Source of the DNA: Azorinus chamasolen | Lineage: Eukaryota; Mollusca; Bivalvia; Cardiida; Solecurtidae | Assembly: GCA_963576725.1 (NCBI GenBank) | Contig: OY755239.1 | Location: 56,259,640-56,323,639, forward strand | Length of the DNA: 64,000 bases | Reading direction: 5' to 3' | In this document: positions 77 to 61,961 of the stretch, piece by piece | Layout: each line of letters begins with the position of its first letter | Position numbering within the stretch: position 1 is the first letter of the stretch | The notes under the pieces: model-generated | What the model saw: only the letters and a program-made list of their open reading frames with translations | What the model was told of the DNA's origin: nothing | Databases searched by the model: none | Translations under genes and position numbers: made by a program

Positions 77-721
77 GGGTGGAGAGTTGTATCCAACCAT
101 TATTTGTTGAAATACTTTTTTTTGAAACCTTAACACTTTACTCTATAGTTTGTGTTCAGTATTGAAGACAGATGTTTGATTAAAACAGGCTGAATGGGAC
201 CATTTTGCGTTTTTCTCAGCCTGCTTTAAGCTACCGTCTACTGTGATATAGAAATATTTCTTATGGCGCATATTCATGAATGTATCAAGTGGAACTATTT
301 TTGAGTGGAGGAATGGATTAACGCACTATAATGAGTACCTATGGAGTAACGGGTTGAACTGGGTATCATTCGACGAAGAGATGCAAACAGTTGATTAAAT
401 AATTATAAAGTTCGAAACGCATCTACACTAATACACTAATACACCGCATCTACACTAATAATCTATACTGTTACAGCTATTCTTGTTTGACCGACCATGT
501 AGTGCAGCTACAAGATTTAAGTTGATATCAGAATTAAGATGAAAACTATTGTAGCTTATTGTATTATAATTTATTTTGAAACGGTGCAAAGCAGTCGCCT
601 GCATAAATCATTACTCTGTATAAAAGAGCCACCTGAAATAACAGATAGCCAAATATTGGTATGTCGTTGTCTTTCAGATGAGTTCAAAGCTGCGATCGTA
701 ATGTTATTCATTTAAGTCATA
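77..721. other. No recognisable gene
   Basis: AT-rich sequence. A small imprecise tandem of CTACACTAATACAC lies at about 420-465. No long frame and no transposon ends were found. Confidence 0.5.
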
Positions 722-860
722 TTAACCCTTTTCATGCTAGTAGCATATATTGACGCAATTTAAAAACAGTGCAGACCCAGATCAAACAGCTCTTAGAGGC
801 TGTATGACCAGGGTGTGCATTGGTTTCTTATAGGATCTGTCAAGCATAAATTGCCATTCG
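722..860. mobile_element. Degenerate TTAA-type palindromic element
   Basis: Starts TTAACCCTTTTCATG and carries a diverged core: GTGCAGACCCAGATCAAACAG on the left, a weak mirror on the right around 800-815. The right end is not clear. Confidence 0.4.
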
Positions 861-939
861 TCCTGGGGAAATTATTACTCCATTACCAATATAAAAGTTG
901 AAATGATAGATAGCCATACGTAATCCATTCATATCTGCG

Positions 940-940
<1 letters not shown>

Positions 941-980
<40 letters not shown>

Positions 981-1117
981 TGGGGGAGAGACACACACAC
1001 ACACAGAGACAGAGACAGAAAGAGAGACACACAGAGAGACAGATAGATAGGGACAGCCACAGACAGACAGACAGACAGAGAGGGAGAGTAAGAGGTGGAA
1101 GAGACGGACAGAGAGAG

Positions 1118-1201
<84 letters not shown>
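941..1201. repeat. (GA)n microsatellite cluster
   Basis: Pure GA runs at about 943-978 and 1119-1201 enclose a compound stretch of CA, GACA and GATA units. Both strands read as open frames of alternating Arg/Glu or Ser/Leu, which are artefacts of the repeat. The run stops where a PD fragment begins. Confidence 0.97.
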
Positions 1202-1203
<2 letters not shown>

Positions 1204-1351
1204 AGTGACTGCTTAATGCAGGTTGAAAGCCATGCAGAAAGCTTATATAGGAGCTTTCTACATGATTTGCACTCTATATTAAGGTACCACCTGCCTTACA
1301 TAAATATAATGATATTTATTGCAGTGTTCGATCTGTCGACGTTTTACTGTA
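1202..1351. mobile_element. PD element, left part missing
   Basis: Begins at the inner PD motif GTGACTGCTTAATGCAGG, passes through the hairpin GAAAGCTTATATAGGAGCTTT and ends with the TA-type terminus GTTTTACTGTA. The GA microsatellite sits where the left end should be. Confidence 0.6.
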
Positions 1352-1589
1352 TAATTAATGTAAAGTATGAACAGAAAGTATCCCCACAAAAGAACACTTT
1401 ATTCTAATTACATGTAATTTAGAATTGAAGAATACTGAATATGTCCAAATGCAGTTCTTAGTCATGAATTCTTCTTGGGTGTGGAAGCCGAAGATACCCC
1501 TTATCATATGACGGGGCTTGTCATGCAGATTTAAACTGGACAATTTGCACAAAGTCATCAGCAGTATGGAAAGAGATAATGCCAGACTG

Positions 1590-1680
1590 GCTAACTACAG
1601 TGAACCCTTGTTACAACTGAGGTGTTTGTTCCCAGACATTGTGCTGGTATAACGAGGTGGCCGTTATAACGGGTTTAAAT
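1590..1680. mobile_element. TA-type terminal-repeat fragment
   Basis: TACAGTGAACCCTTGTTACAAC on the left is matched by the inverted GTATAACGAGGTGGCCGTTA region on the right. It resembles PD-like TIRs with a shortened middle. Confidence 0.35.
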
Positions 1681-1696
1681 ACGAAAGGAACCATAT

Positions 1697-1697
1697 G

Positions 1698-1745
<48 letters not shown>

Positions 1746-1790
1746 GGGGAGAGAGACGGAGAGAGAGGGAGAGACGGAGAGAGAGAGAGA
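1697..1790. repeat. (GA)n microsatellite, compound
   Basis: About 45 bp of GA is followed by GACGGAGA-type variants. Frames through it are Arg/Glu runs with no gene character. Confidence 0.95.
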
Positions 1791-2223
1791 TTTTGACGTC
1801 CCTTCTGGCCTTGTGATTGCATATCATTGTAAATGTTTATTTGGGGGAGAGGACTTCTTAGAAACAACAACAATTGTACACAGAGAGAGGGACAGGGACG
1901 GTGAGGAAATATATTATGGGCTTATTAATTATGTATCAGACAATAACAAAGTCTAAAACATGATAAATATTTCATTTTAATACAGTGCCCCTGTATTGAT
2001 TCACAGGTGCTCGTAGCATGCTATGTCTCCACGACAACAACAGACAAATTCAATATAACTGGTCTATAAGGCCTTGTCCGATCTGATAGCATGGATGGAT
2101 ATCTTGTATTAACAATTTCTTAAAATAATACTTACATGTAAAATAACATTGACTGGTTTTAAACCTAACGTCAAACCCTCACCGACATCAATTATTATTT
2201 CAAGCTTATAGAGATTGTTTTAT
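1791..2223. other. No recognisable gene
   Basis: AT-rich sequence with no transposon ends or plausible exon seen. Confidence 0.5.
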
Positions 2224-2471
2224 TTAACATTTCCCTGTACTATGTTTATTCAAAATTTCAATACTTACTGAATATTCATGGACAAAAATAGTTATAAATG
2301 AAATATGGAAGGGGGACATTGCAGCTATTTAACAAAGCAAAGAAATATATCTATCAAATTCTATTAGCAAACAGAGTAGACCCTGATCAGACGGCTCCTC
2401 TAAGAGGTCAGAGAAGACCCTTCTCTGTTTGCAATTGCGTGAAAACACGTTCATATGAGGGAAAGGGTTAA
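2224..2471 (+). mobile_element. PC palindromic element (TTAA type)
   Basis: Runs from TTAAC-ATTTCCCTGT to GAGGGAAAGGGTTAA. Reference layout for PC: an asymmetric left part (AATTTCAATACYTACTGAATATTCATGG and following), then a hairpin with GCAAACAGAGYAGAYCC on the left arm and GGRTCTACTCTGTTTGC on the right, then a short right flank. In this copy the dyad CTCCTCTAAGAGG is slightly decayed. TTAA at both ends fits piggyBac-like transposition (inference). It encodes no transposase. Confidence 0.8.
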
Positions 2472-3290
2472 AGTACAATATGAAGAAATTTTGAATACAT
2501 AATACCCATTCATTCTATATTTAATATTGTGGGAAATATAGATGGCCGCTCATCAATTATGAAGAGCAATATCAATTATTGGTGATTGACACGCCTATAG
2601 GTGACAGTTGATTGGATTATGTCTTTTCAATGGGTGGGTCTTAAAGATACTGAACCAATGAGCTGTGACATCTTGATAGTAGCAAAAGAGCGGAAATACC
2701 CGATAGTCTTTCTTTAAAGTTGTCGGAACTTTATTGATGACCAAATAATTAACACAATGATGACCATAAATCAATGACCCCCCTGCGCTGAAACACCAAG
2801 GTAGTTTCCGTACATTGTAGAGCACGCAAAGCGATCATTGTTTTAATGTATGACCAAAACATTTGACCCCCATTATACTGAATTATCGTCCGCTTAAAAA
2901 ATGTAGTCTGCAAAATAAATGAAATAAGCATTGCTTTAGTTCGTTGAAAACAAACAGAAAAATGAGAGTCAGACATATTTGACCCTAGTAACACTCTGGG
3001 GAACTCATCATCTGTTCAGTATACAAACTGTTTGTAAATATTAAGGAAGCCACGCTCGGCGGGCTAAGGGTTGATCTGCATTTTTATTTTTATCTTTTTA
3101 AACTTTCAGGGTCCTATAGAGAATGTCCAAGTTACCATACATTTATTATGCTGAAAGAATTTGCTTTTAAAAATGTTTTTTTGTTTTCTTACCGGGTTTC
3201 CTTCTGTCTTCTTTTAAAATAAAAATCGACTAAATTTTGTTTCCGCGTAAAAACATCGAATTAGTGTTAGTGTATCATTTTCAAAGGCAA
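2472..3290. other. No recognisable gene
   Basis: AT-rich sequence. CGGCGGGCTAAGGGTTGA at about 3057-3074 looks like a PE right end, and GTGACTGCTTAATGCGG at 3291-3307 is a PD remnant at the border of the next repeat. Confidence 0.45.
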
Positions 3291-3310
3291 GTGACTGCTT
3301 AATGCGGTGT

Positions 3311-3424
3311 ACGGAAAAATGCCACTGGAAAAAAAATGCCACCGGAAAAAATGCCACTGGAAAAAATGCCACCCTGATTTGGAAAAATGCCATTGGAATA
3401 TATGCCACTGGAAAAAATGCCACC
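3311..3424. repeat. Minisatellite, unit about 16 bp
   Basis: Degenerate direct repeats of ATGCCACTGGAAAAA, six to seven units, some interrupted (CCTGATTTGG insertion). They give a Lys/Cys/His-rich frame that is not a gene. Confidence 0.85.
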
Positions 3425-3453
3425 CTTTTTTCAAAATTATATTTTATCCTTTT

Positions 3454-3516
3454 TTAAGGCCGCAAATAGGGGGCAAAGGTCCGGGGGCAAGTGTCCGGGA
3501 GGCAAATGTCCGTAAA
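3454..3516. repeat. Short G-rich tandem repeat
   Basis: Three to four units of GGGGGCAAATGTCCGG with substitutions. It follows the minisatellite with a short gap, so both may belong to one mobile element. Confidence 0.7.
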
Positions 3517-3519
3517 CCG

Positions 3520-3725
3520 AAATACCGATATCATGAATATTTATTAAATTTATTTTTAAAATAGCTTATGTACTGAGGCTTATTTGGTATTGGAACAAAA
3601 CTATAGAGTTAGATTCAACATAAATTCATAAGCAAACAGAGAATACCCTGATCAGACGGTTTTTATAAGAGCCATCGTATCCGTGTCTACTCTGTTTGCA
3701 AGCACGTGAAAAGCGTCGATGCTCT
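3520..3725. mobile_element. PG palindromic element, left end unclear
   Basis: Carries the PG interior (ATCATGAATATTTATTAAATT), then core GCAAACAGAGAATACCCTGA and mirror GTCTACTCTGTTTGCAAG. The dyad is decayed. Confidence 0.6.
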
Positions 3726-3819
3726 CAGAATTTTTACTTCTGTTGCCGGGTCATGTCAGACGTGCGGATCTCTAGCTGAAGTGTAACCTAAAGTTTGGTT
3801 GTCGGTGGGTTTCAACCAT

Positions 3820-4062
3820 TTCCCTGTTTAATATTTATGTCGGAAAAGATGACATCATGCTATTTATAAGTTGATTTTTATAATGGTGTATGTACGCGGT
3901 CCATGACTTTTCTTGGTACTTGTAGAAAATGTAGAGTCAGATCTTATATAATTTCACAAGTAAACAGAGCTGGTCCCGATCATACGACTCCAATAGGCAC
4001 CTTCAGATCTTGGTCTACTCTGTTTGCAAAGGCATGGACATTGTTTATATATGGTAAAGGGA
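3820..4062. mobile_element. PG palindromic element
   Basis: Interior GATGACATCATGCTATTTATA, core AAACAGAGCTGGTCCCGATC with mirror CTTGGTCTACTCTGTTTGC, right end GGTAAAGGGATAA. The coding-like frame across it is a by-product of the core. Confidence 0.6.
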
Positions 4063-4465
4063 TAAGCAAACAGAGCAGACTCCTGGTCAAACAGCTTTTA
4101 TTTAAGAAATCTGATCTGAGTCTTATCATTTAAAGGTCAAGTAAACAGATCGGGGTTTCGTCAAATTCTGATAGTGTACAGTTAGTTAAACACTAAGCTT
4201 TAGAAAATTCTTACCGTGTTTATCTAGTTTTGATTTAAATCGAGTTTTTATTGTACCGCGAACCGTGTATTTTGAAAATCGATACATGATTATCTCCCTT
4301 GCGTGACGTCACTTGTGATGCTCGCCTGTCAGGGATCCCATTGAGAGGGAGGAATGTACACAGAAACTTAACCTTTTCCTTTAAATTAACGCCTCTGCAA
4401 ACAGAGTAGATCCAGATCAGAGCCTACAGGAACCGTTTAATTAGGGTCTGTTCTGTTTGCTTACA
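4063..4465. mobile_element. Two isolated PC/PG hairpin cores
   Basis: Cores at about 4066-4125 (GCAAACAGAGCAGACTCCTG) and 4395-4465 (GCAAACAGAGTAGATCCAGA ... GGTCTGTTCTGTTTGC). Termini were not found. Nothing was recognised between them. Confidence 0.5.
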
Positions 4466-4670
4466 AAATTAGATCAAATCCGACTACTAAGTTTCTATAA
4501 ATACCCAAATTATTTTCACACTTTTCCAGACATTACGTCCATGGATTAGCCATAGAAAGTGACACTTAGTTTATCGAGTAGGGGAAACTATTTATGGGGT
4601 GTGATGTTTATTTTAGGTGTGGAATACAACGATACTTAAAATTAAACACATACTTTTTAATTTGTTAATC

Positions 4671-4875
4671 TTAAACCTTCTCTTGAATTTTACCCATGCC
4701 CTGTTGTATAATTACATATAGTTTCGCTGTGTACACGTATTTGACTGTGCAATCACTGCTGTAAATCAACTTGTAAATAGTGCAGACCCTGATGAGACAG
4801 CGGTGATTCGAGACAACTCCTGCAGGTTTTCACTATTTACAGGTATATTGACGTGAATAGCAAGCGAATGGTTAA
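4671..4875 (-). mobile_element. PB palindromic element (TTAA type), diverged
   Basis: Reverse orientation, TTAAACCTTCTCTTGAATTT to AGCAAGCGAATGGTTAA. The core GTAAATAGTGCAGACCCTGA is intact on the left, but the dyad is disrupted by GGTGATTCGAG and the right arm is partly deleted. Confidence 0.75.
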
Positions 4876-4954
4876 AACTTACTTTACCTGTCAGTGAATT
4901 AACACTATTCATAAACTATAATTTAAAAAGAGGATGAGGTTAGAACCAAGACCA

Positions 4955-5030
4955 TTAGCAAATAGTGTAGATTCAGATCAGAGGGACCATTTGGGTCCCG
5001 CCCATGAGTTGGGTCCACACAACTTTTAGA
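4955..5030. mobile_element. PF/PC-like hairpin core
   Basis: GCAAATAGTGTAGATTCAGATC followed by AGAGGGACC-ATTT-GGGTCCC and a weak right arm. No ends visible. Confidence 0.4.
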
Positions 5031-6034
5031 CAGAACCAGACAACTTTAGATGGATTTCATATTTAGGCAAAGTGGGTTCAGATGAAATGGGACGTTCTCG
5101 TTAAGTAACATAGTACTATGTATAAATGTACGTACTTTAGAAAAACAAAGAAATTCCACCAAAATGCAGAAAAATAGAAAATTATTTATTTATTTATTTT
5201 ACTTTAATATTTGCAATACCAAAAATGATGCATTACTTTCGGGAAATCGAGTAAAGGTTGAACTACCAAAATATGTATTTTGTTGGGGAAATGAGAAAAG
5301 GTGGATCTTGATAATAAATGGTTGTCAGTCTTGAAGAATGACTATTTTTTTTTAATATATTCATGTTTCTGAAGCTTGTGAATTATGTTTAAATGACTGG
5401 ACCCACTACAAATAAAAATGTCTATAAAAAAATATTGTCAACACATTAAAATTGTTACTACATTTTTCTTTATCATAATTTTACAGTATACTCGTATGTG
5501 CAATTTAATTATGGTTTGTATTACATGTATATGGGAACAACAGTAAACATAGCCAGTAGAATTTCTCTATGCATGTATGAATGAATGTGTTAAATGGCCT
5601 TAGGCCATATTGTACTAAGCCATATTACACACGAAATGCCCCATGCAGGGTCAGTCTCCAGATGTCAGTTATCATAGTGGCCTTTTGTCAAATACCGAAC
5701 AGGGGACAATGATTATTGCAAGGCCATAAAACCCGCTTCCTGTATATTACGTATTGTTGCATTCCTTTATGTAGCTGTGGTAACTTGTCAAAAGAATCAA
5801 TCATTGCGGTCATGGTGCCTCAAAGTTAGTTTTGGGCAAAATGTAGGTAATAATCAGTAAAACTATAATTATAAAACGCATCCAATGAACAATTCCGTAA
5901 ATTACAGTAATCCAGAATGACTTTTTTCCTATGGATTTATGGTCAAAATTGTCCATGTTCAAAAATTGCAAAAGGATCATATTTATGATAAACTATTTCC
6001 CTTATGAAAAAATATGTGTCAGTAAATCACTTCA
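5031..6034. other. No recognisable gene
   Basis: Long AT-rich stretch with T- and A-runs. No transposon core and no exon-like frame noticed. Confidence 0.5.
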
Positions 6035-10651: not shown

Positions 10652-10870
10652 CAGGTATATTGACGACTTTTGACGACTCTGTAAAAGTGACTTTGTAAAA
10701 CCATTGTGATAAATAGAGCATTTGCTCCTATAGGAGCAAATGCTCTATTTATCACAATGGTTTAAAACTACAAAATTCTAAAAGTTTCCTTTTCTCTAGT
10801 TAATGCTCCTTTTCGGTAGATTTATTCAAAGAGGTTGTATCTCAAAATAGCCTATGAGGTAATGGGTTAA
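10652..10870 (+). mobile_element. PA element inside PD
   Basis: A full hairpin with perfect dyad TTTGCTCCTATAGGAGCAAA. The right end ATGGGTTAA abuts the PD motif TACAGGGTGAAAG. The left terminal CCCATTCCCTCA is missing along with the adjoining PD bases. Confidence 0.8.
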
Positions 10871-10949: not shown

Positions 10950-11184
10950 TTAACCCTTCGCTTGCTATTCACGTCAATATACCTACCTGTAAATAGTGAA
11001 GACCCAGATGAGACAGCTCCTGCAGGAGCTGTCTCATCAGGGTCTGCACTATTTACAAATTGATTGTGCAACCAGTGCACTCCACAGCAGTGATTGCACA
11101 GCGAAATAGATATATATAATTATACAACAGAGCATTGGTAAAGAAGGAGACATGTATTTTAAAATTCAGCAAGCGAAGGGTTAA
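10950..11184 (+). mobile_element. PB element inside PD (TTAA type)
   Basis: TTAACCCTTCGCTTGCTATT to AGCAAGCGAAGGGTTAA. Reference layout for PB: ACGTCAATATACCTACC, hairpin arm GTAAATAGTGAAGACCCAGA, dyad CAGCTCC-TGCA-GGAGCTG, mirror arm, then an asymmetric tail holding TGCACTCCACAGCAGTGATT and TTTTAAAATTCAGC. TTAA at both borders. Its hairpin creates a spurious open frame with the peptide SADPDETAPAGAV. Confidence 0.88.
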
Positions 11185-18959: not shown

Positions 18960-19548
<589 letters not shown>

Positions 19549-19763
19549 AACAACCCTTTGGCGGCTAAGCGCGATCCGGCTGGCATTTGCAAACAGCTTG
19601 GATCCAGATGAGACGCCGAGTAACTCGGCGTCTCATCAGGATTCAAGCTGTTTGATACACGGTCGACAGTAATTGAAAAAATCTTGAACGAATCGGAAGT
19701 CAGTAAAAACTGTAGCAGATTAGAATTTAAGTAGACCCCGTTTTTCCGCAGGCTAAGGGCTTA
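19549..19763. mobile_element. PE palindromic element
   Basis: Reference PE copy. Left flank CCTTTGGCGGCTAAGCGCG, hairpin GCAAACAGCTTGGATCCAGA, dyad GACGCCGAGTAACTCGGCGTC, mirror GGATTCAAGCTGTTTGATAC, right end GCAGGCTAAGGGCTTAA. TTAA is clear at the right border only. Confidence 0.75.
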
Positions 19764-19827
19764 ATGTTTAGAAGGATTAAAAATTAATACAGTGAATCTA
19801 TACTGACAAGTGTGTACACATAACGCC

Positions 19828-20272: not shown

Positions 20273-20344
20273 GGGGATGTGGCTCAGTGGTAGGGCGTTT
20301 GCTTTGCACGTGAAAGGCCCCGGGTTCGATACCCGGCATATCCA
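20273..20344 (+). tRNA. tRNA-Ala(UGC)
   Basis: A 72-nt intronless cloverleaf. The A box TGGCTCAGTGG follows the acceptor strand GGGGATG. The anticodon TGC at 20305-20307 sits in loop TTTGCAC. The T arm CCGGG-TTCGATA-CCCGG pairs perfectly, and the discriminator is A. The acceptor stem keeps the G3:U70 wobble pair, the classical identity mark read by alanyl-tRNA synthetase, but has a G4:A69 mismatch. A T6 tract lies nine bases downstream. It sits among transposons, so it could be a functional gene or a slightly decayed copy. Confidence 0.93.
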
Positions 20345-26254: not shown

Positions 26255-26453
26255 TTAACCCGTTACCTCATATTTACGCCTTTTCACGCCTTTGCAAACC
26301 CAGATGCGGGTCTGCTCTGTTCGCTTATGATCTGATTCTACAAATTCTGTTTAGACCGAAATCCTCTGTACATATGCTTTTATAAAAAATAATCTAAATT
26401 ATATTCTTGATGTCATTATTTCTTACATAAATATTCAAAAGGTAACGGGTTAA
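26255..26453. mobile_element. PG element, hairpin centre deleted
   Basis: TTAACCCGTTACCTCATATT to AAAAGGTAACGGGTTAA. The hairpin is reduced to GCAAACCCAGATGCGGGTCTG followed by CTCTGTTCGC, so the dyad and part of both arms are missing. The PG interior is intact. Clean TTAA at both ends. Confidence 0.82.
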
Positions 26454-30080: not shown

Positions 30081-30332
30081 TTAACCCTTTCCCTGTTCTA
30101 TGATTATTCCGAATTTCAATACCTAATGAATATTCAGTCACAAAATAGTTATTATAATGAACTATGAAAGGTAGTACATTGTAGACATTTTAGAAAGCGA
30201 AGAAATAGATCTATCAAATTCTATTAGCAAACAGAGCAGATCCTGATCAGACGGCTCTTCTAGGAGCCGTCTGATCTGGATCTACTCTGTTTGCAAATGC
30301 GTAAAACACGTTTATATGAGAGAAAGGGTTAA
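30081..30332 (+). mobile_element. PC element, best copy
   Basis: TTAACCCTTTCCCTGTTCTA to GAGAGAAAGGGTTAA. Core GCAAACAGAGCAGATCCTGATC, dyad GACGGCTCTTCTAGGAGCCGTC, mirror GGATCTACTCTGTTTGC. TTAA at both borders. Confidence 0.9.
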
Positions 30333-30478
30333 GGACTTAAGTGAACGTATATAATGGCCCTATCGCAAATATTGTCACCATTTTATTTACGTACATCTCA
30401 AATACTACCTCGTTCGACAAAACCTTAATAATTCTTAAATTGGTACAATAGCAGGAATCCTGCCACGCAAATTGCCTT

Positions 30479-30690
30479 AACCTTTAGCCTACTGCGGACG
30501 GATGAGTCGGTACCTATGTAAGCAGTTTTGATCCAAATGAGACTTCGGAAAATTCAGTGTCTCATTAGGATCCAAACTGTCTGATACCTTGAACGTGTTG
30601 GTGAAAAGGAATGCAAGACAAATCAAATTTGACAACCGAGTTTAATGGCACCGTCGACCGATAAAAGCCTTCACAGCAGGATAAAGGTTC
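30479..30690. mobile_element. PE element
   Basis: Left end TTAACCTTTAGCCTACTGCGG, core GTAAGCAGTTTTGATCCAAA, dyad GACTTCGGAAAATTCAGTGTC, mirror GGATCCAAACTGTCTGATAC, right end GCAGGATAAAGGTTCAA. Confidence 0.72.
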
Positions 30691-31342
30691 AATATCAAAT
30701 GTCATTAATATTTGATGAAGTTTACAGAAATCACGGTATGAATTTCAATTCTTGTTGTTCGTCTGATTATAAACTGCGACATTTAATCCATTAGGAGCCA
30801 TGATAATCCAAATAAAGTTTCATATTTTGTTTGCGTATTCCTGATAGATAGATCAATACCGCCTATCGAATGTAATGTTCACGGTTATCGTAGCCGCTCT
30901 TGCATCCAGTCTGTCAACAATGATAGTCTTATTTATCACATGTAGACATCTTTGATATTTAAAGTGAGAAAGTGACACCATACATGCCTGCAATAAAGCC
31001 TTGAAACACATATTAGTTTTCGGCTGCAAAACGCCCTTTTATCGTTTGCTTTTTTTATTATCTGTTTGCTTTCTTAATCACGTCAATGCCATCATTGTCG
31101 TCTGCTGGACACATTGTCGTCTGCTCAAAGCATTAGAGTAGGCGTTTCTTCAATTCCATTATAAACAATGACCAGAGTGTCAAGCCGTTGGATCGCGATA
31201 TGACGTCAAGTTACTCGGCGTCTCATCTGGATCCAAAGTGTTTTCATATGATATCAAAGACCAGTCTTCATGACACTGATGAGGGTTTTGTATCTTCAGC
31301 ATTACATTAGCGTGAAATCCTGACAAACATATGCAGTATAAC
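30691..31342. other. No gene; PE core fragment
   Basis: A PE fragment at about 31175-31250 (CAAGTTACTCGGCGTCTCATC, GGATCCAAAGTG). The rest is AT-rich without exon signals. Confidence 0.45.
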
Positions 31343-31542
31343 GTACCGCTCTAAACGGAATTATAGAAGAGAAGAATGCATATACTTTAGGCAGGTGGCT
31401 TCTTAATGCAGGATGAAAGTCACGCAGAAAGTTCATATAGAAGCTTTTTGCATGACTTTCACCCTGCCTTTAGCTACCACCTGTCTCCAAGACCTGTTAT
31501 TTATACTTAATTGAACGACCGGTTTAGAGAAGTTTTACTATG
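31343..31542. mobile_element. PD element, GGAATT-TIR subtype
   Basis: Left GTACCGCTCTAAACGGAATT, hairpin GCAGGTGGCTTCTTAATGCAG, dyad GAAAGTTCATATAGAAGCTTTT, mirror CCTTTAGCTACCACCTG, right GGTTTAGAGAAGTTTTACTATG. Confidence 0.75.
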
Positions 31543-31593
31543 CATCCTCTTATCAGACAATAACAGTGTTTAATTACATTATCTTGCATGTTT

Positions 31594-31853
31594 TCGCAAA
31601 CACCCCTGCTCTATATACATGTACAGTAAAACCCCGCTAATGCGACCACCTAAAAGAGGTATAATAATGGGTGATAGATGCAGGTGGTAGCTTAATGCAG
31701 GGTAAAAGTAATGCAGAAAGCTCCTCTAGGAGCTTTCTGCATTACTTTTGTCCTGCATTAAACAACCACCTGCTTATAAAGACACCCATGTTTTTTCATT
31801 AAATGGTCGGATTAGAGGGACCCTACTGTATATATAGAGCAGGAGTGTTCGCA
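31594..31853. mobile_element. PD element within a second, outer palindrome
   Basis: A full PD copy at 31622-31830 (TACAGTAAAACCCCGCTAATG ... GACCCTACTGTA, perfect dyad GAAAGCTCCTCTAGGAGCTTTC) is flanked by outer inverted arms CGCAAACACCCCTGCTCTAT and ATAGAGCAGGAGTGTTCGC. Either PD landed on the central TA of another palindrome, or this subtype has longer ends. Confidence 0.85.
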
Positions 31854-32134
31854 AAAAACCCAAAACGTTTTGTTTGTTTGGGTCAGAAACTATCTTTTGG
31901 TATGTTTTAGATACAAGTTTATGACATGTGATTAAAACAATAATGTATCTATGATGGAGTTTAACGTATATGTAAGTGAATACACGTTTCGGTTTCCGTA
32001 TGCATATAGTGCTCTTGGCTGCTAATCCGCGTGAAAATGTTTTCTATTCGCGACTTACAGTTGAAATAGACACAACTTTCATGTGATTGATATCGAAGTC
32101 CCGATGTTATTCGCCAATGTATTTTATCTATTCA
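31854..32134. other. No recognisable feature
   Basis: AT-rich sequence with no element ends seen. Confidence 0.4.
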
Positions 32135-32325
32135 GGTTGCAGTGTAGTTTCGTGTCTTTTCGAAAAAGGTCGGTAATATTTTGTTGTACAACAAAACAAA
32201 TACAAGTATCAACGAAAAATGTACTGGTATTTATTAGGGTTGCGTTTTAGTTCCGTGTCTTTTTGACTTAGGGAGGTAATATTTTGTTGTACAAAAAAGA
32301 GTTATAAGTATCGAGGAAAACGGTT
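32135..32325. repeat. Tandem duplication, period about 102 bp
   Basis: GGTTGCAGTGTAGTTTCGTGTC and GGTTGCGTTTTAGTTCCGTGTC start the two copies. Both continue GGTAATATTTTGTTGTACAA and AAGTATCRAGGAAAA. Confidence 0.8.
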
Positions 32326-32379
32326 TATTTTGTATCACAGGGGCATTTTGCAATATAAGTTCAACTGACAATCATTGAA

Positions 32380-32587
32380 TACAGTAAAACCTCTCTATAA
32401 CGGCTTCTAAATTACATCAAGTATATTTTGACAAAGGCAGGTGGCTGCTTAAAGCAATGTGAATATAATACAGAACGCTCCTATAGGAGCGTTCTGTTTT
32501 ACTTTCACCTTGCTTTAAGCAACCACCTGCCCTAAATACCAACTAATTAACACAATTCAGTGGCCGTTATAGAGAGATTTTACTGTA
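32380..32587. mobile_element. PD element, GCG-arm subtype
   Basis: TACAGTAAAACCTCTCTATAA to TAGAGAGATTTTACTGTA. Dyad GAACGCTCCTATAGGAGCGTTC differs from other PD copies on both arms in a matching way. Closest relative at 41289-41495. Confidence 0.9.
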
Positions 32588-33838: not shown

Positions 33839-34084
33839 TTAACCCTTTCGGCGCCAAATTTCTAATTGTCGTCTGCAGACCACTTTTATTAAATCGTTTG
33901 GTAAAAGAAGGAACTGAGATAAATAAATGCTAATTTTAAAGGAATAAAGCATATATATGGAAAAAGAGTTTGAGACAAAAAGTGAAGTCCCTGATCAGAC
34001 GCCGCCTTGAAAAGGCTGCGTCTGATCTGGGTCTGTACTATTTGTCGTGGTGCATTTTTGCGACACTGGGGGTGAAAGGGTTAA
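33839..34084. mobile_element. PI palindromic element (TTAA type)
   Basis: TTAACCCTTTCGGCGCCAAA to GGGGGTGAAAGGGTTAA. Left flank ends GAGTTTGAGACAAAAAGTG, hairpin GTCCCTGATCAGACGCCGCC, dyad CCTTGAAAAGG, mirror GTCTGATCTGGGTCTG. TTAA at both borders. Confidence 0.85.
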
Positions 34085-38512: not shown

Positions 38513-38834
38513 TACAGTGTTCCCTCTCTACAACGACACCCTTTGGGATACGAAGATTGTATGTGCTGTTCAGAGGGAGTTGTTATAGGGAGGGAAAATC
38601 AAACATAATTAGCTTGTTTTCAGATCCGCAGATCAGGTGTATTTCGAGAACTTATACCGTTATGCCTCAATCATTCTAAAGAATGGTCACAACATAGGGT
38701 TTGATAGAGGCATAAAGAAAATACGATGGAAAAAAGTTTGTTTCTGGAGCTTTGTTGTTTCGGAAACAGTGACATGCGTTGTTGTAAGGAGGGACTCGTT
38801 ATTGAGAGGGTCGTTGTAGGGAGGAAGCACTGTA
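38513..38834. mobile_element. TA-type mariner-like element, CCCTCTCTACAACGAC ends
   Basis: TACAGTGTTCCCTCTCTACAA to AGGGAGGAAGCACTGTA, with long terminal inverted repeats that include further sub-repeats (GGAGTTGTTATAGGGAGGG). A PJ fragment (TCTAAAGAATGGTCACAACA) lies inside at about 38672. No transposase. Confidence 0.75.
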
Positions 38835-41512: not shown

Positions 41513-41745
41513 TTAACACCTTCCCTCATATTAACACCTTTTCACGCAGTTGCAAACAGAATAGCTCCTACATGAGCCGTCTGATCTGGGTCTGCTCTGT
41601 TTGCTACTGGAATTTGACAGATCTGTTTCTTGACTTTCTAAAATGGCTACAATGTCCCACCTTCCATATTTCAGTATAACTAGTTTGTCCATAAATATTA
41701 AGAGGTGTCGAAAAATGGAATAAACTAGAACATGGGAAGGGTTAA
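41513..41745 (-). mobile_element. PC element, left arm deleted
   Basis: TTAACACCTTCCCTCATATT to CATGGGAAGGGTTAA. Left arm reduced to GCAAACAGAATAGCTCC, mirror GCCGTCTGATCTGGGTCTG intact. Confidence 0.78.
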
Positions 41746-45121: not shown

Positions 45122-45284
45122 GGACAAATAGAGAATATTTGGTTCCTAGCTTTGAATGAGAAATGTTATCTGGCAAGGCGGATGAATATATCAGGTGAGC
45201 CGAAGGCGAACCTGATATATTCAGAAGCCGAGCCAGATAACATTTCTCATTCAAAGCTAGGAACCGAATATTCTATTTATCCTT
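45122..45284. mobile_element. PL fold-back hairpin
   Basis: Arms of about 65-70 nt: GGTTCCTAGCTTTGAATGAG ... ATATATCAGGT, apex GAGCCGAAGGCGAA, mirror CCTGATATATTC ... CTCATTCAAAGCTAGGAACC. Nearly perfect pairing suggests recent origin or homogenised arms. Confidence 0.85.
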
Positions 45285-50166: not shown

Positions 50167-50395
50167 TTAACCCATTTGCTCCCAGTGGATTCTTCCGTGT
50201 TTATATATTGGATTAGTCCACTTTTTATCTAAGGGGTGCCTGGCTTAAATTTTCACCTTCGTTTTGTTTTATATCGCAATTCCTATGAGCAAACAGTGTA
50301 GACTCTGATCAGACGCCGCATTATGCGGCGTCTGATCAGAGTCTACACTGTTTGCCTATGTCCCATATATGGGATCGTTGGTACAAATGGGTTAA
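50167..50395. mobile_element. PH palindromic element (TTAA type)
   Basis: TTAACCCATTTGCTCCCAGT to GGTACAAATGGGTTAA. Perfect hairpin GCAAACAGTGTAGACTCTGA ... GACGCCGCATTATGCGGCGTC ... TCAGAGTCTACACTGTTTGC. The only copy in the window. The unblemished arms point to a recent insertion. Confidence 0.9.
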
Positions 50396-54775: not shown

Positions 54776-54983
54776 CATTAACTAGTTCGCTGTCAAATTG
54801 TGACGTCTGCAAACGTTGCCGTCTGCTACAATTTTCATTTTTCTTCATTTTTGTTTCAAGAACCAGTCACAGTAACAAACAGTTTGGATCCTGATGAGAT
54901 GCCGTGATACTCGGCGTTTCATCTTGATCCAAACTGTTTACATAGGTATAATCACAGATGCGACACTGTTAGCGAAAGAGTTA
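54776..54983. mobile_element. PE-like element, TTAA ends
   Basis: ATTAACTAGTTCGCTGTC to GTTAGCGAAAGAGTTAA. Core AAACAGTTTGGATCCTGATG, dyad GATGCCGTGATACTCGGCGTT, mirror GATCCAAACTGTTTACATAG. Confidence 0.75.
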
Positions 54984-55213
54984 ACATGTCCGAGTCTTCA
55001 GTTTAGTCCATATAAGAGCCAAACTGTGTGTCACCGGAATTCAAAATACCCTGACAATCGAACCCTTGCTCTTAAATAGAAATTGATAGCAGTTTTTATG
55101 ACTTTGCTAATCAAACTAACACTTTGAATGATTGTTTGATCGCCCATATATTTCTCTGCATAAGTACTCTAATGGATAGAGGGATCACAGACTAACTGTT
55201 CCGAACAGCAACT

Positions 55214-57563: not shown

Positions 57564-57794
57564 TTAACCCTTCTCTTGCTGAATTTTAAAATGCGTTTCT
57601 CCTTCTTTGCCCGTGCCCTGTCGTATAATTACGAGTATTTCGCTGTGCAATCACTGCTGTGGATTGCACTGGTTGTACAATCAACTTGTAAATAGTGCAG
57701 ACCCTGATGAGACAGCTCCTGTAGGAGCTGTCTCATCTGGGTCTTCACTATTTACAGGTAGGTATATTGACGCGAATAGCAAGCGAAGGGTTAA
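57564..57794 (-). mobile_element. PB element, reverse
   Basis: TTAACCCTTCTCTTGCTGAA to AGCAAGCGAAGGGTTAA, dyad ACAGCTCCTGTAGGAGCTGT. It produces a decoy frame containing NSADPDETAPVGAVSSGS. Confidence 0.88.
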
Positions 57795-57959
57795 TTCAGA
57801 CACTGTATCTAGGTCTCTGGTGTGCCTGTTGTGCACTGATTTGAATACCCGAGTTCATAGAATTGGTTTATGACGATATGTTGTAATTCACATAAAACAC
57901 CATAATCAAAACACAAGTAATTTCTCGAATATATTCACTTATCAGGCTAATACAGAATA

Positions 57960-61134: not shown

Positions 61135-61325
61135 GAGGTCCAGATCAGATCCGTAAATTAAACATTTTGAAGAATAGTTCCTTTATTTCTTCACCAAACC
61201 CTATACTCTTACTACTCTTTAGAATCGTCTCGAAGAGACGCTTCTAAAGAGTGGTCACAGTATAAGATTTGGTGGAGAAATGGCGATTGTAGTATTTGGA
61301 CAGACACCTTTATCTGTAGCTCTGG
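61135..61325. mobile_element. PJ element, best copy
   Basis: Arms CCACCAAACCCTATACTC ... CTCTTTAGAATCGTC and mirror to GGTTTGGTGG...TATCTGTAGCTCTG around apex GTCTCGAAGAGAC. The outer arms differ in the usual asymmetric way. Confidence 0.8.
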
Positions 61326-61747: not shown

Positions 61748-61961
61748 TTAACCCTTACAACGCTGAATTTTCAAATGGACTCTTCCAAAATTCAAATGGG
61801 TAAAGCTTGTAATGAATATTTAGGGATGTTTTCTAAAGAAAAGTGTAACATGACAAACACTGCAGACCCTGATGAGAGGGCTCCCCTAGGAGCCATCTCA
61901 TCTGGGTCTACACTGTTTGCAAAGGACATTAGTGACTCGGGTCCCGCACTGTAAGGGTTAA
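61748..61961. mobile_element. PF element, best copy
   Basis: TTAACCCTTACAACGCTGAA to CGCACTGTAAGGGTTAA. Core GACAAACACTGCAGACCCTGA, dyad GAGGGCTCCCCTAGGAGCCATC, mirror CTGGGTCTACACTGTTTGC. Confidence 0.88.

Follow-up and report, generated by a model that had tools for sequence, protein, structure and literature searches.

Here, we examine the short mobile elements in a 64,000-nt stretch of the genome of the bivalve Azorinus chamasolen (contig OY755239.1, positions 56,259,640 to 56,323,639; hereafter the window), which is packed with such elements built around long palindromes (36 palindrome clusters in a scan). The central palindromes, which we call hearts, are of three types: T and A, found with TTAA ends, and D, found with TA/CAGT ends. 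We tentatively propose that the hearts could well be cis-acting hairpin modules of miniature inverted-repeat transposable elements (MITEs), with a role at the DNA level in their multiplication. This reading draws on sequence comparison: in family A, the best case for a test, the hairpin stays constant while the ends change, suggesting that the hairpin itself may help the elements to spread.

The first-pass annotation of the window had described a core, GCTCC-NNNN-GGAGC, at the centre of six elements, and all six hold it (PA, PB, PC with one mismatch, two copies of PD, and PF). The core is real and genome-wide. With at most one mismatch, it occurs 29 times in the window (14 exact) against 0.37 ± 0.56 expected (100 shuffles, mean 0.37, largest 2). 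Nor is it confined to the window, as the annotation had allowed for: 20 other places of 10 kb each on contigs C1-C10 (200 kb, hereafter the sample; 264 kb with the window) yielded 92 tips, of which 51 are exact, and no match to any of 19 permuted patterns, while the tip GCTCCTATAGGAGC has 178,273 exact matches in the 1,723,440,353 bp of the genome and its reversed control 0. By arm signature, 89 of the 92 sample tips were assigned to T (44), D (30) or A (15), and the three that the script left unclassified were read as two T and one D. The 209 strong palindromes in 264 kb comprised 84 T, 46 D, 37 A and 42 others, among which many came from one satellite at locus L002 and several from one further tip-less family.

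Copies of families A, B, C and F (to which PA, PB, PC and PF belong) and of G, I and J carry an exact TTAA at both ends; H has no exact TTAA pair, with TTAA/TGAA in the copy at 30477-30691. The letters G, H, I and J were assigned in this analysis and may differ from the earlier PG, PH and PI. Both termini read TTAACCC in A, B, C, F, G and I copies (10-13 of 14 bases matching), and by their TTAA and CC[C/T] ends we class these families as piggyBac-type MITEs; the ends of J depart from TTAACCC (TTAACTAG/TTAACTCT). D copies are inverted repeats of the form TACAGT...ACTGTA with a TA target, which we take to be pogo/Tc1-like. Scanning the 264 kb for TTAA|CCC pairs 70-450 bp apart gave 60 elements (the reversed-sequence control, made for TTAA|CCC only, found 2 pairs), and 58 of these hold a T or A heart (30 T, 27 A, 1 both, 2 none), while none holds a D heart. 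TA|CAGTA pairs numbered 46 (31 D, 3 D+T, 1 A+D, 1 T, 10 none), the 4 with mixed hearts being taken as probably nested. Because of these counts, we conclude that hearts keep to their own kind of ends.

PC (family C; 30081-30332, + strand; TTAA-type, ends TTAACCCTTTCCCTG...) contains a T heart at 30224-30297 (+), a hairpin with T.T and C.A mismatches, the tip GCTCTTCTAGGAGC at 30254-30267 and a predicted fold of -54.4 kcal/mol (z -12.3). Seven window copies of the family were aligned, and its hand-patched consensus consists of 143 bp on the left, a heart of 68 bp and 39 bp on the right. PD (family D1; 31622-31830, -; TACAGT ends, TA target; 22 D copies aligned) has its D heart at 31680-31776 (-), with a stem of about 46 bp and the tip GCTCCTCTAGGAGC at 31720-31733; the enclosing segment, 31675-31780, folds to -70.8 (+) and -72.4 (-) kcal/mol. 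The second copy, of subfamily D2 (32380-32587, +; inverted repeat I3, part of the D alignment), holds a D2 heart at 32432-32533 (+; CAGAACGCTCC...GGAGCGTTCTG) with the tip GCTCCTATAGGAGC at 32477-32490, and the segment around it, 32430-32535, folds to -68.3 kcal/mol. PA (family A; 10652-10870, +), TTAA-type with an arm of its own, has a degenerate left end in this copy and an A heart at 10698-10763 (+; tip GCTCCTATAGGAGC at 10724-10737); the consensus heart of this family, from 37 copies in window and sample, is a perfect palindrome. PB (family B; 10950-11184, -; TTAACCCTTCGCTTGC ends) and PF (family F; 61748-61961, +; TTAACCCTTACAACGCTG ends) have T hearts at 10986-11059 (-; tip GCTCCTGCAGGAGC at 11016-11029) and 61851-61924 (+; tip GCTCCCCTAGGAGC at 61880-61893), respectively, the latter folding to -43.3 (+) and -50.6 (-) kcal/mol.

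The T heart, a hairpin of 67-73 bp, is common to B, C, F, G, H, I and J. Its outer arm, AAAYAGNGYAGAYCCWGATSAGA, had been ascribed to the TTAA families at large; B, C, F, G, H, I and J do have it, but PA does not, its arm being GAAACCATTGTGATAAATAGAGCATTT. The tip varies within the arm family, being GCTCC in B, C and F and CCG... in the others: G (one copy, 50167-50395, +; TTAACCCATTTG ends) has T arms and the tip CCGCAT-T-ATGCGG, is symmetric and is without the T.T mismatch; I (two copies aligned; 33839-34084, +; TTAACCCTTTCGGCGCC ends) has T arms and the tip CCGCC; H (one copy, 19547-19764, -) has T arms and the tip CCGAG-TTA-CTCGG, its outer ends being uncertain, with no clear TTAA pair; and J (one copy, 54778-54984, +; TTAACTAGTTCGC ends) has T arms and a CCG-type tip. 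Set against the arm tree, the tip type requires 3 changes, although a single CCG clade is not rejected (P = 0.20).

Across these seven families, heart-heart z reached 9-41 for 15 of the 21 pairs; two pairs gave 8.2-8.7, and four (B-H, B-J, C-J and I-J) gave 3.5-4.8, whereas end-end z lay between -0.4 and 3.9 in 39 of 42 comparisons, the exceptions being the left ends of B-F (7.6) and the right ends of C-I (5.1) and I-J (8.1); G, H and J entered as single copies, I as two, and C with its hand-patched consensus heart. The right end follows the heart at 37 (B), 39 (C), 41 (F), 40 (G), 42 (H), 38 (I) and 43 bp (J), and the left at 96-143 bp, with the reservation that the symmetry of G makes its orientation not independent and that the end of H is uncertain. 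A T.T mismatch reads A.A on the other strand and hence sets the orientation of a heart. Of the 36 window hearts that could be oriented by asymmetry (4 of 40 had none and were excluded), 24 have a GGTTAA-like end on the right, at 28-50 bp, and 2 have it on the left. With T.T/A.A as the guide, the end lies to the right in 17 of 21 window hearts, to the left in 0 and on neither side in 4, and in the sample (n = 71) to the right only in 34, on both sides in 8, to the left only in 4 and on neither in 25. Over window and sample, the distance from core motif to end has a sharp peak at 53 bp (29 cases). Given the high heart z, the low end z, the one orientation and the one spacing, the natural reading is that B, C, F, G, H, I and J probably descend from one TTAA-type MITE, so the common source that the first-pass annotation had offered as one possibility fits these seven families.

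Evidence that the heart itself is retained comes from family A, with 37 full copies in the 264 kb. Taking singletons as mostly post-insertion changes and variants shared by at least two copies as markers of source lineages (CpG positions excluded), we found that singletons are equally frequent in the heart and outside it (48/2451 vs 124/5454, P = 0.41), while shared variants are five times rarer in the heart (39/2451 vs 446/5454, P = 6 × 10−36). Shared variants per cell amount to 0.015-0.017 in the three heart bins and 0.058-0.112 elsewhere, terminal ends included. In a MAFFT alignment, 2 of 67 heart sites and 44 of 155 outside sites had a variant in at least four copies (P = 3 × 10−6). The heart consensus is identical across three clusters, of 23, 6 and 5 copies, whose ends differ. 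Since shared variants are rarer in the heart and singletons are not, family A gives good support for selection among source copies; selection on the hairpin, as raised in the earlier annotation, finds little or no support in B, C, F and D2.

The hairpin is also apparent in the pattern of changes. In the 20 aligned window hearts, columns 22 and 59 are unpaired in 18, of which 17 are T.T by reading, and a second imperfect pair, mostly C against A or T, occurs in 15. Among hearts picked by motif, T.T/A.A is present in 71 of 98 from the sample and in 21 of 29 from the window; T.T is lost in G. Base pairing is found in 83.9% of cells in the 20 window hearts (74.1 when shuffled), both-side changes in 19 of 33 pairs (12.9 shuffled), and the covariation score is 0.312 compared with 0.147 ± 0.013 in shuffles and at most 0.095 when the partner is slid by 1-3 columns. 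For 60 sample hearts (out of 65, chosen for T.T/A.A and tip length), the score is 0.225 vs 0.128 ± 0.007 and double-change cells number 99 vs 40.6; for D hearts, the values are 0.181 vs 0.140 and 31 vs 18.4. The alignments used full-length hearts (T 20 of 69 matches, D 14 of 36), and the covariation controls may be inflated by related sequences. Folded T and A hearts form 29-33 pairs around a 3-6-nt loop (energies of -43 to -64 kcal/mol, z between -8 and -16), and D hearts a stem of about 46 bp (-68 to -72 kcal/mol).

The annotation further held that TA and TTAA families share their centre, a claim that stands for the tip, with no alignment beyond it. The innermost GCTCCT, that is a 14-bp centre, is common to T, A and D. 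In centre-aligned half arms of 12 nt, D1 and D2 agree with C at 10 of the 12 positions and with B and F at 9-10. The chance of such a D-to-T match is 4.8 × 10−5 (19/400,000 draws), or 1.5 × 10−4 (9/60,000) when G+C-rich tips are required, so these tips are more alike than random palindromes would be. D and T have a 26-bp pattern in common and a tip of the form CAGANNGCTCC-TNNA-GGAGCNNTCTG; SAGANNGCTCCTNNAGGAGCNNTCTS with at most two mismatches occurs 20 times in the window vs 0.00 expected, and the B heart gives three 24-bp matches on D tips. Between A and the other two, the innermost 6 nt are alike (chance 1.1 × 10−4 per lineage), while over 12 half-arm positions only 6-7 agree (P = 0.03-0.05, two pairs computed). 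No sign of whole-heart homology between D and T was seen, the alignment showing likeness at the tip alone. Chance appears unlikely as the source of the common tip, which most likely either has a function as a site or was passed between hearts long ago. We also asked whether heart arms are inner copies of the elements' own ends: A, B, C, F, G, H, I and J gave no signal, and D gave one weak case (CCTGTCTTAAGC/CCTGCATTAAGC; P = 0.03 with D2, 0.23 with D1).

Autonomous piggyBac elements offer a further comparison. The genome has at least 110 matches to PF13843, of which three elements were bounded, each by comparing two copies: P21 (5,368 bp, 98.7% alike), P22 (5,674 bp, 99.6%) and P23 (5,326 bp, 99.1%). 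In Pfam, the transposase regions of P21 and P23 correspond to DDE_Tnp_1_7. P21 has termini with 17 and 20 nt identical to the MITE C end, and the start of P22 is similar only to the A end (87.5% over 24 nt); ends matching B, F, G and I were not found among these three of the at least 110 matches. The heart motif is absent from the 400 bp next to the ends of P21, P22 and P23, as is any heart match above 36 bits. A heart as part of autonomous piggyBac ends was thus not seen in these three elements, and the MITE heart was not carried along from their ends; diverged hearts further inside them look like the remains of nested MITEs. Within P22, a recent piggyBac, the transposase match is split in two by a gap of about 0.9 kb that contains heart-like matches, and 317-bp tandem repeats in about three copies occupy positions 4051-5000 of locus L022, up to the end of the locus.

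If the hearts are cis-acting modules, lines that keep producing copies would have to retain the heart, while the ends would follow whichever piggyBac transposase is at hand. The heart would act as DNA, forming a hairpin or cruciform when the element is replicated, excised or repaired, and a host or shared factor might bind it at a fixed spacing from one end. The tip common to T, A and D could be the site of the hairpin step, or else the product of an old transfer between hearts aided by tip-to-tip recombination. A stronger form, in which the heart is a transposase-independent amplification signal whose hairpin, recurring mismatch and common tip are recognised by a host factor and needed by MITEs of two superfamilies, seems unlikely to us; if true, the ends could change to suit any transposase, the hairpin staying.

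Several observations weigh against a cis-acting role. The selection signal is strong in family A only, and even there the two smallest clusters (2 copies and 1 copy) have altered hearts; moreover, copying of hearts between subfamilies would yield the same pattern as selection. In C, shared variants are 59/1431 in the heart vs 210/4152 (P = 0.17, 24 copies), and P reaches 0.013 only with 26 copies under a looser cut. In B (11 copies), the contrast in shared variants has P = 0.066, and the heart is also poorer in singletons (8/786 vs 53/1830, P = 0.003), which is not what selection on source copies predicts. Variability in heart and rest among window copies is 0.044 and 0.053 in B, 0.089 and 0.101 in C, and 0.136 and 0.150 in F, and the central 26 bp are no less variable than the rest in these families (0.074, 0.101 and 0.164). 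In D2 (16 copies), the left heart arm, at 0.050, exceeds the ends (0.012 and 0.025) and the tip (0.012); D1 copies mix subfamilies, and H was left out of these tests for want of usable rows. The right ends of I and J are closer (z 8.1) than their hearts (z 3.6). With regard to covariation, two of the five measures, double-change pairs (11 vs 11.6) and pair types (38 vs 39.7), stay at the shuffled level in the 60 sample hearts, which had been picked for T.T/A.A, and these two counts are not above shuffles in D hearts either. Finally, autonomous elements move without a heart, and 10 of the 46 TA|CAGTA elements have none.

A rather unlikely alternative is that recombination or template switching at the palindrome copies hearts or tips, so that hearts are homogenised without being needed and the D-T tip was transferred. 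We noticed that T, A and D hearts sit near or inside one another, and the three changes of tip type on the arm tree would fit such copying, even if one CCG clade is not rejected. Direct products of exchange exist as well. The pattern SAGACNGCTCC-NNNN-GGAGCTTTCTGC occurs at 461 places (control 0), and we read 20 of 100 listed ones (CAGACGG 8 of 8, CAGACAG 10 of 88, CAGACTG 1 of 3, CAGACCG 1 of 1). In 6 of these 20 (L037, L039, L041, L042, L049 and L053), a T half is joined to a D half exactly at the tip, with different flanks, which indicates that unrelated hearts have recombined there; at L035, a D heart with its tip is followed by a T-arm piece, a second tip and then D again, which looks like a template switch between hearts; and the other places are two changed T hearts (L036, L038) and eleven changed D hearts. 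The strict join GATSAGACNGCTCC-NNNN-GGAGCTTTCTGCAT has 20 exact places (control 0), of which the 6 read comprise five joins and L035. However, joins are rare, with none accepted among 119 tips in the 264 kb (the one left-D, right-T call was read as a C copy at 41563 with an arm deletion), and the ones seen resemble two half elements fused together, not the start of new families. A whole heart stays with its own kind of ends, so that of the exchange between superfamilies envisaged in the annotation, tip-to-tip joins are borne out and whole-heart transfer is not. In addition, copying of arms should give complementary double changes, whereas 0 were found within A copies (permuted mean 0.8), a weak test.

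Mutation bias, in which template switching keeps palindromes complementary, the tip being a chance or G+C-clamp likeness and nothing having a function, seems distinctly improbable. Template-switch correction of imperfect palindromes is known, covariation would follow from it without selection, and L035 resembles such a switch. Yet the T.T mismatch persists while neighbouring pairs covary, complementary double changes are absent within A copies, the D-T tip exceeds chance even with the G+C clamp, and neither the spacing nor the deficit of shared variants at equal singletons in A would be explained. It is also quite unlikely that the heart is kept as RNA, transcribed into a hairpin resembling a precursor microRNA or hairpin RNA that yields small RNAs or binds a protein. 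The folds of T and A hearts, their covarying pairs and the recurring mismatch speak for it. On the other hand, D hearts are longer (about 46 bp), loops of 3-6 nt are small for a canonical primary microRNA, the gain to a transposon from small-RNA production is not obvious, and a search of the window against Rfam at gathering thresholds returned one tRNA only (20273-20344). Palindromic MITEs that make microRNAs are known, such as MADE1/miR-548, a near-perfect palindrome of about the same size as the hearts.

Coral CMITEs, several families of TTAA-flanked piggyBac-type MITEs whose interior is better conserved between families than their terminal repeats (Wang et al. 2010, PMC2872659), are the closest precedent and the same kind of element. 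That the interior of piggyBac-type MITEs can be better kept than the ends is thus already known; the T families resemble them in this respect, I-J excepted. The same authors suggested a role of the interior in transposition, and an autonomous coral piggyBac with matching ends has little similarity to it (PMC2872659). We found no sequence likeness between the 60-nt internal CMITE consensus and our hearts and D elements (all P > 0.05, lowest 0.053), and that consensus folds only to -11 kcal/mol, unlike the hearts. In the passages of PMC2872659 examined, there is no mention of a long hairpin, covariation, a test of singletons against shared variants, the same tip with a second type of ends, or tip joins. 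MER6 carries a V domain of short interspersed nuclear elements (SINEs), a conserved module that MITEs have in common with a transposon of another kind (Luchetti et al. 2019, PMC6887750); that module is SINE-derived. In rice, internal parts of mPing raise or lower transposition, according to the abstract (Redd et al. 2023, PMC9921582), which makes a cis role of a MITE interior an established possibility, although mPing/Ping/Pong are not piggyBac-type and the abstract mentions no hairpin. Heart patterns had 0 matches in viral_contigs and genome_contigs, which cover viruses and bacteria plus archaea and so say little on animals, and paper searches for heart letters or peptides found none. Among the papers listed, at the level of titles and the starts of abstracts (most subscription papers and all repeat libraries lay outside this scope), the families were not found beyond the precedents named, and we did not meet a hairpin of this kind (mismatch, spacing and orientation included), the contrast of singletons and shared variants, the tip common to TTAA and TA elements, or the tip joins.

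Other features of the region were also recorded. Hearts translate as spurious peptides (NSADPDETAPxGAVSSGSSLFTG), for example in the open reading frame at 57583-57870 (+), which overlaps a second B copy (57564-57794, +). A protein search with this frame returned one ENA protein, P0001 (86% identity over 58% of the query), a predicted protein derived from a heart on a 15.5-kb ENA contig and held in a public protein collection. The window has a long inverted repeat at 45132-45274 (70-nt arms, 89% complementary) that appears unrelated to T, A and D hearts. A fourth palindromic family (TGACCACTCTTTAGAATCGTCTC, 3-nt centre), without a GCTCC tip, is present at 61185-61281 and at L005 (about 549), L009 (6300) and L016 (4683), while the satellite-like array at L002 (about 149-5821) repeats about every 277 bp, many of its units having a palindrome around TCAACTGGCAAC. 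No heart was found in a 199-bp TTAA|CCC element at 26255-26453, nor in a TA-flanked family with TACAGTGYTCCCTC ends (38513-38834 and L020 7625-7942), the latter being a natural comparison for D elements with a heart.

The question is open as to why certain MITEs become so numerous when their autonomous partners remain few. Our results imply that the answer may be a physical part of the element, a heart that is present in nearly all TTAA|CCC elements of the 264 kb and is the best-kept part of family A. The genome of A. chamasolen, moreover, holds natural recombination products of unrelated palindromes, joined at their common tip.

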